DNA from: Bacteroidaceae bacterium
GTDB taxonomy: Bacteria > Bacteroidota > Bacteroidia > Bacteroidales > Bacteroidaceae
DNA length: 64,000 nt
Reading direction: 5' to 3'
Assembly (NCBI GenBank): GCA_024697785.1
Contig: JAILEU010000037.1
Span: 1-64,000 of the forward strand
Part shown: positions 45,330-51,323 of the stretch, one piece after another
How the letters are laid out: every line of letters begins with the position of its first letter
How positions within the stretch are numbered: the first letter of the stretch is position 1
Notes under the pieces: model-generated
What the model saw: only the letters and a program-made list of their open reading frames with translations
Database searches by the model: none
What the model was told of the DNA's origin: nothing
Made by a program: the position numbers and the translations under genes

Positions 45330-46220
45330 TCACACGCCTCTTTTGGCAAACAGCGCCAGAAGGGCTTTCACATAGTCTTCGTCCGTACGTACAGACACGC
45401 TGTCCACGTTGCACTTCAACAGCGTGTCGGTGAGTTTTTGCTGGCGATCAACCCACCAAGCATGGTGCGAATTACGCACGCGGGCAGACGATGTGTCGAT
45501 GTACTGTGTGGCACTTGTCTCAGCATCGCGTACCTTCATCAGTCCGACATTGGGTAACTCCTCCACCCGACGGTCGTACACCTGAATGGCTACCACATCG
45601 TGTTTGCGGTTGGCAATCGTCAGGGCATCCTTGAGGTCGTGACTATCGATGAAATCGCTCATCAGGAAGCACGTGCAACGTTTCTTGATAGCATTGGTAA
45701 GGTATTGGAGGGGGACGTTGATGTCCGTCAGGCGGCTTTCGGCATGGAAGTCGAGCAGCTCACGAATGATGTAGAGGATGTGCTTGCGGCCCTTCTGAGG
45801 CGGAATGAAGCGCTCCACCTTGTCCGTAAAGAAGATGACACCGATTTTATCGTTGTTCTGGATAGCCGAGAAGGCAAGCGTTGCAGCAATCTCGGCAACC
45901 ATGTCCTTTTTATACTGGACAGCCGTGCCGAAGTCGAGGCTTTGCGACATGTCAACCAACAGCATGACGGTGAGTTCGCGTTCCTCTTCATAGACTTTCA
46001 CGTATGGATGGTTGAAGCGGGCCGTGACGTTCCAGTCGATGTCACGTACATCGTCGCCGTACTGATACTCACGCACTTCAGAGAAGGCCATACCACGCCC
46101 CTTGAAAGCCGTGTGGTACTGTCCGGCAAACAGGTTGTTGGACAGTCCGCGCGCCTTTATCTCTATCTTGCGTACTTTTTCTATCAGTTCGTTTGCATCC
46201 ATGTCATCAGGGCACTTCAA
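45330..46220 (-). CDS. DUF58 domain protein
   Basis: 'GRGMAFSEVREYQYGDDVRDIDWNVTARFNHPYVKVYEEERELTVMLLVDMSQS'. Confidence 0.93.
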   Translation of the reverse strand: MKCPDDMDANELIEKVRKIEIKARGLSNNLFAGQYHTAFKGRGMAFSEVREYQYGDDVRDIDWNVTARFNHPYVKVYEEERELTVMLLVDMSQSLDFGTAVQYKKDMVAEIAATLAFSAIQNNDKIGVIFFTDKVERFIPPQKGRKHILYIIRELLDFHAESRLTDINVPLQYLTNAIKKRCTCFLMSDFIDSHDLKDALTIANRKHDVVAIQVYDRRVEELPNVGLMKVRDAETSATQYIDTSSARVRNSHHAWWVDRQQKLTDTLLKCNVDSVSVRTDEDYVKALLALFAKRGV

Positions 46221-47202
46221 CCTTGTTCAGAATCTTGCTGACGATTTCCTCGGCAGCGATGTTGCTGGCTTCGGCTTCGTAGGTGAGCCCGATGCGGTGG
46301 CGCAGCACGTCGTGGGCAACGGCACGTACGTCCTCGGGAACGACATATCCGCGACGCTTGATGAAGGCGTAGGCACGGGCGGCAAGGGCGAGGTTGATGG
46401 AGGCACGGGGCGAGCCGCCGAAGGATATCATGTTCTTCAGTTCCTTCAGGTCGTACTTGTCGGGATAGCGTGTGGCAAACACGATGTCGGCAATGTACTG
46501 CTCAATCTTTTCGTCGATATAGACTTCGCGGACAATGTTGCGGGCGGCAAGAATCTCATCGGCCTTCATAATGGGCTTAACGGTCATCTTCTCGCCGCTG
46601 ATATTCTGACGGATAATCTTCTTCTCCTCGTCGAGCTTCGGATAGTCGATGACAACTTTCATCATGAAACGGTCCACCTGAGCTTCGGGAAGCGGATAGG
46701 TACCCTCCTGCTCGATGGGGTTCTGCGTAGCCATCACCAGGAAGGGCTCGGGCAGCTTGTAGGTCTCCTTGCCGATGGTCACCTGACGCTCCTGCATGGC
46801 TTCGAGCAATGCGCTCTGCACCTTGGCGGGGGCTCGGTTGATTTCATCAGCCAGCACGAAGTTGGCAAACACGGGACCTTTGTTGGGAAGGAACGTCTCG
46901 TCCTTTTGGCTATAGATCATAGTGCCGGTGACATCGGCAGGTAACAGGTCAGGAGTAAACTGGATGCGGCTGTACTTGGCATCGATAAGGGATGAAAGCG
47001 TCTTGATGGCAAGCGTCTTGGCCAAGCCGGGAACACCTTCGAGCAGGACGTGTCCATCGGAAAGCAGACCGATGAGAAGCGATTCCACGAGGTGTTTCTG
47101 ACCGACGATTACCTGGTCCATGCCCGCCATCAGGTTGGTGACAAAAGCACTCTGTCTTTCAATTTTTTCGTTCAGTTCACGAATGTCAATGGTAGTGGTC
47201 AT
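46207..47202 (-). CDS. MoxR-family AAA+ ATPase
   Basis: 'LLEGVPGLAKTLAIKTLS', 'NFVLADEINRAPAKVQSALLEAMQERQVTI'. Confidence 0.95.
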   Translation of the reverse strand: MTTTIDIRELNEKIERQSAFVTNLMAGMDQVIVGQKHLVESLLIGLLSDGHVLLEGVPGLAKTLAIKTLSSLIDAKYSRIQFTPDLLPADVTGTMIYSQKDETFLPNKGPVFANFVLADEINRAPAKVQSALLEAMQERQVTIGKETYKLPEPFLVMATQNPIEQEGTYPLPEAQVDRFMMKVVIDYPKLDEEKKIIRQNISGEKMTVKPIMKADEILAARNIVREVYIDEKIEQYIADIVFATRYPDKYDLKELKNMISFGGSPRASINLALAARAYAFIKRRGYVVPEDVRAVAHDVLRHRIGLTYEAEASNIAAEEIVSKILNKVEVP

Positions 47203-47239: not shown

Positions 47240-48646
47240 TTATTTGGCTTTCAGTTCAGGGATGGCGATGCTCTTACCCACTTGTACGCTGTTGGGGTTC
47301 TTCAGGCCATTATGTTTGACGATGTAGGGCCAGAGGCGTTTGTCGTTGTAGTATTTGCGTGCCAGCTGGACAATGGTTTCGCCCTCCTGCACGGTATGCG
47401 TCGCTTTCGTGCCGAGGATAACGTAGCCCGTAGTGTCAGCCATCGTGATGTCTTTGAGGCTCTTTTCGCCTGAACGGGCTGGCTGGACAGTTGTTTTCTG
47501 CTGTGCAGGCTTAGCTTCCGCTGACTTAGCTTCGGCAGGCTCAGCCCCGGCTGGCTTCACTTCCAACGTCTTTGCCTCTTCAGGGACGGCTTGGGTGGTC
47601 TTGACTTCGAGCGTCTTTCCCTCCTCTGAAGATATTTGTGTACTATCATGAACGATGCTTGCCGTAGTAGAGCATGCCGCGGGGGTTGGTTTGGGCGAAT
47701 CCGTCTTTATGACGATATTAGGCTTTTTGTCGCTGAAATCGACGTGTTCGACCTTAATGCTGTTCTCTTTCTCTCCTGCTGCATGAGCATATGTAGGCTT
47801 TTCAAACCCCTTTCCAAAGGTGATGTAGATATAGAGACAGACTGAAACGAGGAGTAACAAGACGATGGGCAGCCAGTAATGCCACGAACGGCGCGGTCTT
47901 CTCGTCCTCTTTACGTTGTCTGGCTCTCGCTTCAAGGCCTCTGGTTCAGGAGTGCCGGTTTCCTTCCTTACTGGCTCATCCTCAGGTACAAGAATCGGTT
48001 CTGGCTCTATGGCTATCTCGGTCTCTGGCTCTGTCGTTGCCTCTGGCCGGGCAGCTTCCCCTGAATCCGCTTTTGTCCCGGCTGATTCCACAGGCTCGGG
48101 TTCTGTCATTGTTTCTACATCAGCCGCAGCTTCGTATACTGAAGGCGTTTCTGACTCCGATTCTGTCCCTGCCGGCATTTCCAGCGCAGTCGTCTCTTCC
48201 TGTACTTCCGGCTTTTCTTCTGCAGCAGAAGAGAACGTCTCATTCACTTCATCAGCATGCAGCAGAGCACCCGCGTCCAAACCGGCATCTTCCACTCTGT
48301 CAGTTTCTTCCTGGGTGGAGTAACCGTCGTTTAGCTCCGTTGTTTCGAACTGGGCAAAGGGCTTGTTAATGCGTTCCTTCAGCGCTGTTTCGGGCAGGAA
48401 CGTCACTTTGCGGTAGCCCTTGATGACGATGCGCTCACCGGTGTTGACATCGACGCTCTCCCTGCCCATGACGGCTGAGAGCTTAAATGTCCCCCACCCC
48501 TTCACTTTAACAATGTCATCCTGTGCAAGGCCGTCGGCAAGCACATCGAAGAAGGCGCGGACGAAGCCCTCGGCTTGCGATGCCGTGAGGCTGCTCTTCT
48601 CAGCAAGCTCTTCCGCGAGGTTCAGTACAGATAATTTCTTCTCCAT
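47240..48646 (-). CDS. HU/IHF-domain - transmembrane - LysM fusion protein
   Basis: N-terminal HU-like fold ('VKGWGTFKLSAVMGRESVDVNTGERIVIKGYRKVTFLPETALKERIN'), acidic linker, 'RTRRPRRSWHYWLPIVLLLLVSVCLYIYITFG' TM, C-terminal LysM ('THTVQEGETIVQLARKYYNDKRLWPYIVKHNGLKNPNSVQVGKSIAIP'). Confidence 0.9.
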   Translation of the reverse strand: MEKKLSVLNLAEELAEKSSLTASQAEGFVRAFFDVLADGLAQDDIVKVKGWGTFKLSAVMGRESVDVNTGERIVIKGYRKVTFLPETALKERINKPFAQFETTELNDGYSTQEETDRVEDAGLDAGALLHADEVNETFSSAAEEKPEVQEETTALEMPAGTESESETPSVYEAAADVETMTEPEPVESAGTKADSGEAARPEATTEPETEIAIEPEPILVPEDEPVRKETGTPEPEALKREPDNVKRTRRPRRSWHYWLPIVLLLLVSVCLYIYITFGKGFEKPTYAHAAGEKENSIKVEHVDFSDKKPNIVIKTDSPKPTPAACSTTASIVHDSTQISSEEGKTLEVKTTQAVPEEAKTLEVKPAGAEPAEAKSAEAKPAQQKTTVQPARSGEKSLKDITMADTTGYVILGTKATHTVQEGETIVQLARKYYNDKRLWPYIVKHNGLKNPNSVQVGKSIAIPELKAK

Positions 48647-48656
48647 GTCGTTTCAC

Positions 48657-48980
48657 TTATTGCCTTGATACATGGTCTTCTGCCGACGCTTCCATGTTGT
48701 CTGCGTCTGCGTTGAATCTCTCTTTCAGCGAGGCGCTTTGCTTGAAGCTCAGGGCCAGTTTGGGCGGAATCAGGTAGCGCTTGCCCGTGGTGGGATTGAC
48801 GGAGACGCGCTCCATCTTCTTCTTCACTTCGAAGGTGCCGAACCCCACAGCGGCAATGGTGTCGTTTTCCTCCAGATGGCTCGTCATCAATGCCTCGAAA
48901 TCCTCTATAAGCTTCAGCGTGTCGGACGGCGTACGTCCCGTGCGCTTGGAGAGCGCTGTGATAAATTCCTTGTTGTTCAT
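48657..48980 (-). CDS. HU/IHF-family DNA-binding protein
   Basis: 'VGFGTFEVKKKMERVSVNPTTGKRYLIPPKLALSFKQSASLKERF'. Confidence 0.92.
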   Translation of the reverse strand: MNNKEFITALSKRTGRTPSDTLKLIEDFEALMTSHLEENDTIAAVGFGTFEVKKKMERVSVNPTTGKRYLIPPKLALSFKQSASLKERFNADADNMEASAEDHVSRQ

Positions 48981-48983
48981 GTT

Positions 48984-50318
48984 TCAGATGGTTTTTGCGT
49001 AGAGGTCAAATTCGTCGGCATCGGTGACGAGGACGTTGTAGAATTGTCCTGCCGTCAGCTTGTTTCCATTCTTTTCTATCAACACTTCGGGGTCAACCTC
49101 TGGCGAGTCGTATTCCGTACGTCCGATGTAGTAGTCTCCCTCCTGGCGGTCTATGATGACGCGGATAGTTTTGCCTATCATCGAATGGCTTACCTCGCCG
49201 GCAATCTCCTGCTGGACGGCCATCAGCTCGTTAAGACGTTGCTGCTTGACATCGTCGGGAACATCGTCGGCGTAGTGTTCAGCGGCATAGGTGCCCTCTT
49301 CCTCGCTATAGGCAAACGCACCCATTCGCTCGAAGCGAGCATGCCGCACAAACGTTTTCAGTTGCTCGAAATCATCGTCTGTCTCGCCTGGGAAACCTAC
49401 CATCAGCGTCGTACGGAGGAAGATGCCGGGCACCTCGCGACGAAGGGTCGCAAGCAGGTTGTAGGTCTCCTGAGAGGTGATGTGACGGCGCATGCGCTTC
49501 AGCACGGGGTTGCTGATGTGCTGCAAGGCGATGTCGAGGTAGTTGCACACGTTGGGGCGCTCGCGCATCACGCGCAACAGGTCGAAGGGAAAGCCCGTGG
49601 GATAGGCATAGTGAAGCCTGAGCCACTCCACGCCGCGGATATCGGCCATCTTCTCCGTCAGCTCGGCAATGCTGCGCTTATGATAGAGGTCCAGCCCATA
49701 GTACGTCAGATCCTGCGCAATAAGCTGTATCTCCTTGACCCCCTGATTAGTCAGCCAACGCACTTCGTCCAGAATCTCTTCCATCGGACGGGAGACGTGA
49801 TGGCCTGTAATGATGGGAATGGCGCAATAGGCACACAGACGGTTACAGCCCTCGCCGATTTTCACGTATGCATAGTGCGAAGGCGTCGTTATCACTCGCT
49901 GAAAACGAAGGCTTTGTTCCGAAGTCTGGCCGTCTGAAGCCGGACCGTCTGCTTTCCTGAGCAGCCTAACCTCTTCAACCAGTTCGTTCCAGTTGAACTT
50001 GCCGAAGTATCGGTCCACTTCGGGAATCTCATCGTTGAGTTCCTGGAAGAAGCGCTCCGAGAGGCAGCCCATCACGTACACCTTGCGGACGTGACGATGT
50101 GCCTTCTGCTCACAGACTTCGAGTATCATGTTGACGGATTCCTCCTTGGCGTCGCCGATGAATCCGCAGGTATTGATGACCACAATCTCGCCGCTCACAT
50201 TGTCGGGATTATGACAGACGGTGTAGCCCAACGCCTCCAATCGCTTCATCAGCTTCTCCGAATCTACCAGATTCTTTGAGCAGCCCAGCGTGATGACGTC
50301 TATGCGGTTACGGATCAT
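48984..50318 (-). CDS. rimO: ribosomal protein S12 methylthiotransferase
   Basis: 'DVITLGCSKNLVDSEKLM', 'IGEGCNRLCAYCAIPIITGHHVSRPMEEI', TRAM domain. Confidence 0.96.
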   Translation of the reverse strand: MIRNRIDVITLGCSKNLVDSEKLMKRLEALGYTVCHNPDNVSGEIVVINTCGFIGDAKEESVNMILEVCEQKAHRHVRKVYVMGCLSERFFQELNDEIPEVDRYFGKFNWNELVEEVRLLRKADGPASDGQTSEQSLRFQRVITTPSHYAYVKIGEGCNRLCAYCAIPIITGHHVSRPMEEILDEVRWLTNQGVKEIQLIAQDLTYYGLDLYHKRSIAELTEKMADIRGVEWLRLHYAYPTGFPFDLLRVMRERPNVCNYLDIALQHISNPVLKRMRRHITSQETYNLLATLRREVPGIFLRTTLMVGFPGETDDDFEQLKTFVRHARFERMGAFAYSEEEGTYAAEHYADDVPDDVKQQRLNELMAVQQEIAGEVSHSMIGKTIRVIIDRQEGDYYIGRTEYDSPEVDPEVLIEKNGNKLTAGQFYNVLVTDADEFDLYAKTI

Positions 50319-50324
50319 TGGAAA

Positions 50325-51323
50325 TTAGTTGAAGAGTGAATCGACAAATTCTTCTTTGTCAAACAACTGCAAATCGTTTATGCCTTCGCCCAGTCCAACG
50401 TATTTGACCGGAATCTGGAACTGATCGCTGACGCCAATGACGACGCCTCCCTTAGCCGTGCCGTCAAGTTTGGTGATGGCAAGGGCTGTCACTTCGGTAG
50501 CCTTGGTGAACTGTTTGGCCTGCTCGAAGGCGTTCTGTCCTGTGCTTCCGTCAAGCACCAGCAGCACCTCGTCAGGGGCATGGGGAACGACTTTTTTCAT
50601 GACGTTCTTTATCTTCGTCAGCTCGTTCATCAGGCCGATTTTGTTGTGCAGGCGTCCGGCTGTGTCGATGATGACGACATCGGCGTTGTTGGCAACGGCC
50701 GACTTCATGGTGTCGAAGGCCACCGACGCAGGGTCGGCACCCATATTCTGCTTGACGACAGGCACATCGGCTCTCCTGCCCCACTCCACAAGCTGCTCAA
50801 CGGCAGCTGCACGGAACGTGTCGGCGGCACCCAGATAGACGTTTAGACCGGCTGTCTTGAACTTATTGGCCAGTTTTCCAATCGTAGTGGTCTTGCCTAC
50901 GCCGTTCACACCTACCACCATGATGACATAGGGCTTCTGGTCGGTGTCAAAGACGAAATTGTCGGCATCGCCCGAGCGGTTCTCGGTGAGCAGAGCCGCT
51001 ATCTCTTCTTTCAGAATGCGGTTCAGCTCGTTGGTGTTGAGGTATTTGTCGCGTGCCACGCGTGCTTCGATGCGTTTGATGATTTTAAGCGTGGTCTCAA
51101 TACCTACATCGCTGGTGATGAGGGCTTCTTCAAGGTTGTCCAGCACTTCGTCATCGACTTTCGACTTGCCGGCAACGGCACGGGCCACTTTCGACAGGAC
51201 GCTCTCTTTCGAGCGCGCCAGTCCCTTGTCGTAAACCGCTTTGGCCTCTGCAGCCTGAGCAGCCTCTTCCGTGCTCAGGCTCTTATCCTTCCTGGATTTC
51301 GTGAAAAAAGAAAATAAGCCCAT
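50325..51323 (-). CDS. ftsY: signal recognition particle receptor FtsY
   Basis: 'VVGVNGVGKTTTIGKLANKFK', 'DTFRAAAVEQL', 'DTAGRLHNK', 'TKLDGTAKGG'. Confidence 0.96.
   Translation of the reverse strand: MGLFSFFTKSRKDKSLSTEEAAQAAEAKAVYDKGLARSKESVLSKVARAVAGKSKVDDEVLDNLEEALITSDVGIETTLKIIKRIEARVARDKYLNTNELNRILKEEIAALLTENRSGDADNFVFDTDQKPYVIMVVGVNGVGKTTTIGKLANKFKTAGLNVYLGAADTFRAAAVEQLVEWGRRADVPVVKQNMGADPASVAFDTMKSAVANNADVVIIDTAGRLHNKIGLMNELTKIKNVMKKVVPHAPDEVLLVLDGSTGQNAFEQAKQFTKATEVTALAITKLDGTAKGGVVIGVSDQFQIPVKYVGLGEGINDLQLFDKEEFVDSLFN

Follow-up and report, generated by a model that had tools for sequence, protein, structure and literature searches.

A conserved HU-family gene pair of Bacteroidales encodes a candidate nucleoid-to-cell-wall tether

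We analysed a 64,000-nucleotide stretch of contig JAILEU010000037.1 from a Bacteroidaceae bacterium (the window) and found on its minus strand a gene pair, HU2-HUL, whose products may tether the nucleoid to the cell wall: HU2 would grip DNA, and HUL would anchor the pair to the membrane and to peptidoglycan. We put the probability of this reading at about one half. The unit itself is real, conserved, widespread and apparently unstudied; a literature search, whose coverage stopped short of the text of Burroughs et al. 2017, returned no experiment on any HUL member and no paper on an HU-LysM protein. To our knowledge, chromosome positioning and segregation have been little studied in the Bacteroidales, which are dominant gut bacteria. 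A conserved two-gene unit possibly joining nucleoid and wall offers a directly testable entry in genetically tractable Bacteroides and, if the reading is true, HU2-HUL would be an unusually direct link between DNA and envelope. The two genes and the parts of HUL are located in the window as follows.

47240..48646, minus strand: HUL, 468 aa, comprising an HU domain, an acidic linker, one transmembrane (TM) helix, a disordered linker and LysM
48353..48646, minus strand: HU/IHF-like domain of HUL, residues 1-98 (Pfam; pLDDT about 90)
48422..48463, minus strand: HUL arm motif R62-ESVDVNTGER-I75, with Val67 in place of the intercalating proline (alignment)
48317..48367, minus strand: HUL-specific extension NKPFAQFETxxLND, residues 94-110, right after the HU domain (alignment)
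47891..48316, minus strand: cytoplasmic linker of HUL, acidic and disordered, residues 111-252 (composition and low pLDDT)
47816..47884, minus strand: single TM helix of HUL, residues 255-277 (hydropathy and model)
47426..47815, minus strand: presumed periplasmic linker of HUL, disordered, residues 278-407 (low pLDDT)
47246..47425, minus strand: LysM domain of HUL with an extra N-terminal strand, residues 408-467 (Pfam, pLDDT 90-96 and profile)
48657..48980, minus strand: HU2, a free HU protein with an N-P-T-T-G arm, proposed obligate partner of HUL

The ORF listing of the window showed HUL as an uninterrupted frame with an ATG start. Pfam placed Bac_DNA_binding on residues 10-94 (E 5.9e-18), a full-model match spanning 6-90 of 90 positions, and LysM on residues 417-463 (E 8e-6), both above the curated cut-offs. 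An AlphaFold2 model using 26 homologues was confident over residues 7-98 (HU) and 408-467 (LysM), placed a helix at 255-277 and left both linkers disordered; the top 19-residue hydropathy window begins at residue 259, and a basic patch, KRTRRPRRSW, closes the acidic linker just N-terminal of the helix. The solved structures nearest to the HU domain are those of IHF alpha (PDB sequence match 8flj_E; fold matches to IHF/HU), and the domain has the two-helix body and long-armed beta saddle of the HU/IHF superfamily. In the alignment, the NKPFAxFE extension marks HUL, ordinary HU being without it, and it forms a short strand in the paired model described below. The original prediction had described the protein as HU, acidic linker, basic patch, TM helix and LysM; Pfam, hydropathy and AlphaFold2 bore this out in every testable detail, and Pfam and AlphaFold, the checks it had proposed, recovered both domains. 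Intact fusions in more than 100 independent genomes rule out an assembly artefact or a split into two ORFs. The architecture is likewise far beyond chance because the same protein is conserved in those >100 genomes.

A single TM segment was scored by hydropathy in 103 of 105 HUL homologues, the other two showing a hydrophobic segment just below threshold. The N-terminal flank of the helix is more basic than the C-terminal flank in 70 homologues and less basic in 12, which by the positive-inside rule predicts an N-in/C-out topology and supports the earlier placement of HU in the cytoplasm and LysM in the periplasm. We judged a cleaved signal untenable: the helix is internal, with a folded domain and then a long linker in front of it, and the same holds in the homologues. 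Across the family the cytoplasmic linker carries a charge of -0.23 per residue and has a median length of 120 aa, but it ranges from 17 to 343 aa, and its geometry is therefore not tightly conserved. Such an acidic linker of variable length would fit a flexible spacer repelled from both DNA and membrane.

We surveyed the spread of HUL at increasing taxonomic depth. A single-sequence search found matches in 114 of 121 home-family genomes, 107 of them at E <= 1e-8 (count from table), with carriers that include Bacteroides fragilis, B. gallinarum, B. faecis, Phocaeicola massiliensis, Segatella copri, Prevotella and Alloprevotella. Order-wide, about 109 families were sampled, and a profile search gave strong matches (E < 1e-20) in at least 15 of them. 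The class sample, at E <= 1e-8, held no further strong full-length match outside the order. A phylum-wide sample revealed a second HUL group, made up of 29 genomes that all belong to a single family of a different class. At all seven of the loci read there (L186-L192), an HU2-like gene directly precedes, and usually overlaps, a gene for an HU-acidic linker-TM-LysM protein. The HU domain and extension of this group match home HUL over 110 columns (profile columns 1-110, E 1.5e-37), and its C-terminal domain matches the home LysM (E 1.8e-13) as well as solved LysM proteins. Thus the architecture, for which a survey across Bacteroidales had been suggested, is widespread and not peculiar to the source contig. 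The HUL proteins of the other class carry an extra, helical-looking C-terminal segment beyond LysM.

HU2 belongs to the Pfam HU family (E 4.3e-23), and its ORF lies directly upstream of HUL with ten bases between them. We scored gene neighbours at 107 HUL loci, 79 from named records, mostly of the home family, and 28 from other families. HU2 lies immediately upstream of HUL on the same strand in 105 of the 107 and in 28/28 outside the home family; the two loci without a scored HU2 look like start-codon artefacts of the ORF caller, the HU2 ORF being present there too. The two genes are a median of 3 nt apart, and in 93 loci they overlap or are separated by <=15 nt, suggesting translational coupling. 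In a modest, species-sampled co-evolution test on 57 genomes, HU2 distances correlated with HUL HU-domain distances after RimO, FtsY and MoxR had been removed (partial r 0.52; 0/1000 permutations); against HUL LysM distances there was no such correlation (-0.05).

We also modelled the pair as a single chain from the locus of a close relative (L064), in which the genes share one frame and the HU2 stop was read as glycine. The model reached pLDDT 88.8 and pTM 0.82; being a single chain joined by a read-through linker, it does not discriminate against homodimers. Its best structural match is an engineered single-chain IHF, and profile comparison likens the HU2 half to HU and the HUL half to IHF alpha. 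Taken together, gene pairing in 105/107 loci, co-evolution and a confident paired model support the heterodimer that had been proposed for the two proteins, and on this basis HU2 and HUL are best read as a predicted obligate IHF-like heterodimer.

If the two subunits do pair, their arms suggest a division of labour. The HU2 arm, N-P-T-T-G, keeps the intercalating proline, which is retained in 100% of 49 aligned HU2 domains; a motif count on 105 HU2 sequences gave 76 NP, 8 SP and 4 HP, the remainder probably being motif misses for the most part. R60, the proline and the basic KKK/PPK residues of HU2 are almost invariant in the alignment. The HUL arm, R-E-S-V-D-V-N-T-G, has no proline; most Bacteroidales HULs carry Val or Ile at that position and lack R-N-P-x-T-G, and the HULs of the other class retain the proline. 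Averaged over about 30 residues, the arm charge is +6.6 for HU2 versus -0.3 for HUL. Because of this difference, it is probably HU2 that grips DNA, with HUL serving as the anchor, and the DNA contribution of the near-neutral HUL arm itself may be weak. The missing proline, read originally as D-V-N-T-G, is genuine, but the altered binding it was taken to hint at does not follow from it alone: the loss is Bacteroidales-wide in HUL, and the ordinary HU of the same genome (L179:1492-1767 (-), contig C9) has RNISKNT instead of RNPxTG. Since that ordinary HU is also without the proline, its loss alone is no strong sign of lost binding, and the residue is not a strict mark of the HU/IHF superfamily.

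The same arm bears on a different view, in which the HU domain of HUL is a protein-protein module, of the sort proposed for HU domains of CCDC81 type and seen in RodZ, through which an envelope scaffold recruits a cytoplasmic partner and binds no DNA. The helix-turn-helix of RodZ binds MreB, and HU folds can also mediate contacts between proteins, an example being the eukaryotic CCDC81 family. The near-neutral HUL arm fits this view, as do weak matches of 7 of 26 HULs to Pfam HU-CCDC81_bac_2 and the presence of eukaryotic doublet-microtubule proteins among the structural matches of the paired model. The near-invariance of the HU2 DNA-contact candidates, however, suggests that the pair does contact DNA, and we regard a pure scaffold as unlikely. 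We favour the tether, in which the HU2-HUL pair would bind DNA.

The gene neighbourhood bears on a second alternative. In the window the HU pair lies between the following genes, ftsY and rimO upstream and moxR/bat downstream, all of them on its own strand and separated by only 3 to about 37 nt.

48984..50318, minus strand: rimO (Pfam; genomic context only)
50325..51323, minus strand: ftsY (ORF; genomic context only)
46207..47202, minus strand: moxR, first gene of the downstream moxR-bat cluster (Pfam AAA_3; genomic context only)

Across the 107 loci, moxR-bat lies downstream of HUL in 76. Outside the home family, rimO is near HUL in only 6 of 28 loci and moxR in 18 of 28, and the neighbours of the other-class pair are wholly different from the home ones. 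The setting between ftsY-rimO and moxR-bat given in the original prediction is thus correct at the locus but does not hold as a functional unit beyond the home family: there the adjacency is often lost while HU2 stays, which weakens rimO, ftsY and moxR as functional partners. The functional unit is the HU pair, and the envelope-gene neighbourhood is secondary. At the other-class loci (L186-L192) the neighbours include a large, aconitase-like gene and a gene for a short protein beginning MIRHIVMWKL.

HUL could alternatively be a one-component regulator in the membrane, resembling ToxR/CadC, in which LysM or the periplasmic linker would sense the state of the wall and HU2-HUL would alter envelope genes, for example moxR-bat, in their expression or local DNA architecture. 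The 76/107 downstream linkage would suit such a role, and so would the kinship of the HUL HU domain to IHF alpha, which is sequence-specific. Yet the moxR link is gone in many loci that keep the HU pair, and in the other class the pair sits among quite different genes; HU-type domains usually show little sequence specificity, and the modelled linkers are disordered and contain no sensor fold. We consider this regulator improbable too.

The LysM assignment holds at the level of fold. The HUL-family profile matches solved proteins with the beta-alpha-alpha-beta LysM fold (best E 1.8e-13), and Pfam detects LysM at E<0.01 in only 13 of 26 HUL homologues. The closest solved structures by profile include the LysM of E. 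coli Kbp, a potassium-binding protein, and for this reason the presence of LysM is no proof of wall binding. A reading in which the HU pair anchors DNA to the inner membrane while the ligand of LysM is an ion, a periplasmic protein or a GlcNAc polymer other than peptidoglycan has some weight because of Kbp but is still quite improbable: the divergence of LysM in many HULs and the Kbp match speak for it, but the domain is always C-terminal across the order and in another class, LysMs of TsaP and cell-wall hydrolases match the profile too, and that of the analogous FimV binds sacculi (PMC12918733). Peptidoglycan remains the putative ligand of LysM under the tether reading.

We propose the following mechanism for the tether. 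HU2 and HUL would form an obligate IHF-like heterodimer sitting at the inner membrane, in which the basic, proline-tipped arm of HU2 provides most of the DNA grip and the HU domain of HUL the other half of the dimer. The long acidic disordered linker would hold the HU pair off the membrane yet within reach of the nucleoid, the TM helix would be the single fixation point in the inner membrane, and the disordered periplasmic linker would bring LysM to peptidoglycan. The outcome would be a flexible tether, present in many copies, that joins the nucleoid to the cell wall and is of use in nucleoid positioning or segregation. The data themselves show the sequence anatomy, its conservation, the gene pairing, the co-evolution and the predicted folds and pairing; the topology, the binding of DNA and of peptidoglycan and the role in chromosome positioning are inferred.

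Three known systems invite comparison. IHF/HU heterodimers share with HU2-HUL the fold, the arm architecture and the pairing of two related subunits, but they are soluble, have no TM helix or LysM, and in IHF both arms are basic with a proline. RodZ and ToxR/CadC-type proteins combine a cytoplasmic fold of DNA-binding type, a TM helix and a periplasmic part; unlike HUL they use helix-turn-helix folds and have neither LysM nor an HU partner. FimV/HubP proteins resemble HUL in a periplasmic LysM, one TM helix and a long acidic cytoplasmic region, and differ in an N-terminal LysM, the lack of a DNA-binding domain and a TPR/FimV C-terminus (PMC12918733); no homology is expected. Pfam matches of HUL included no FimV model, and with HU at its N-terminus and LysM at its C-terminus HUL falls outside that family. 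Some FimV/HubP members act in chromosome segregation, but P. putida FimV is dispensable for it, a caution against over-reading the likeness (PMC12918733).

The closest parallel lies within the same genome, which encodes a protein with two HU-CCDC81 domains, a TM helix and SPOR (Pfam; L185:1375-2505 (+), contig C9). Burroughs and colleagues reportedly described HU-CCDC81 SPOR fusions in 2017. Like HU2-HUL, these proteins (PF18174, PF18175, PF05036) have two HU-type domains, an internal TM helix and a periplasmic peptidoglycan-binding domain; they carry the HU pair on one chain, of CCDC81 type, and end in SPOR, whereas HU2-HUL uses two genes, the standard Bac_DNA_binding/IHF type and LysM. HUL has neither PF18174 nor SPOR, and PF18175 appears weakly in only 7 of 26 members, which sets HUL apart from the HU-CCDC81/SPOR family. 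HU2-HUL is the same plan built from different modules. The title of the 2017 paper names chromosome partitioning (Burroughs et al. 2017 Cell Cycle, doi 10.1080/15384101.2017.1315494, cited in PMC5906684). The HU-CCDC81 domain, the first HU of the SPOR protein, was found in 53 of 61 home-family genomes, and the HU-TM-wall-binding design is present in two forms, LysM and SPOR, within the same cells. We suggest, more tentatively than the tether itself, that HU2-HUL is a dedicated heterodimeric chromosome-to-cell-wall tether acting through one continuous polypeptide, general in the nucleoid organisation of gut Bacteroidales, with an HU-CCDC81/SPOR protein as a second tether beside it.

In Prevotellamassilia timonensis and Alloprevotella rava the usual place of moxR, directly after HU2-HUL, is taken by the HU-CCDC81/TM/SPOR gene (L117:9813-10922 (+) and L098:9309-10310 (+)), and coordinates suggest the same placement in two related genomes (G013, G033). 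On contigs C23 and C111 the source genome also encodes two proteins, each about 220 aa long, in which an HU domain is followed by additional C-terminal domains (L182:1144-1806 (-) and L183:1132-1809 (-)). Each of these genes is divergent from a similar gene, by eye for a VirE/primase-type mobile-element protein, an arrangement reminiscent of the HU-HIG expansion.
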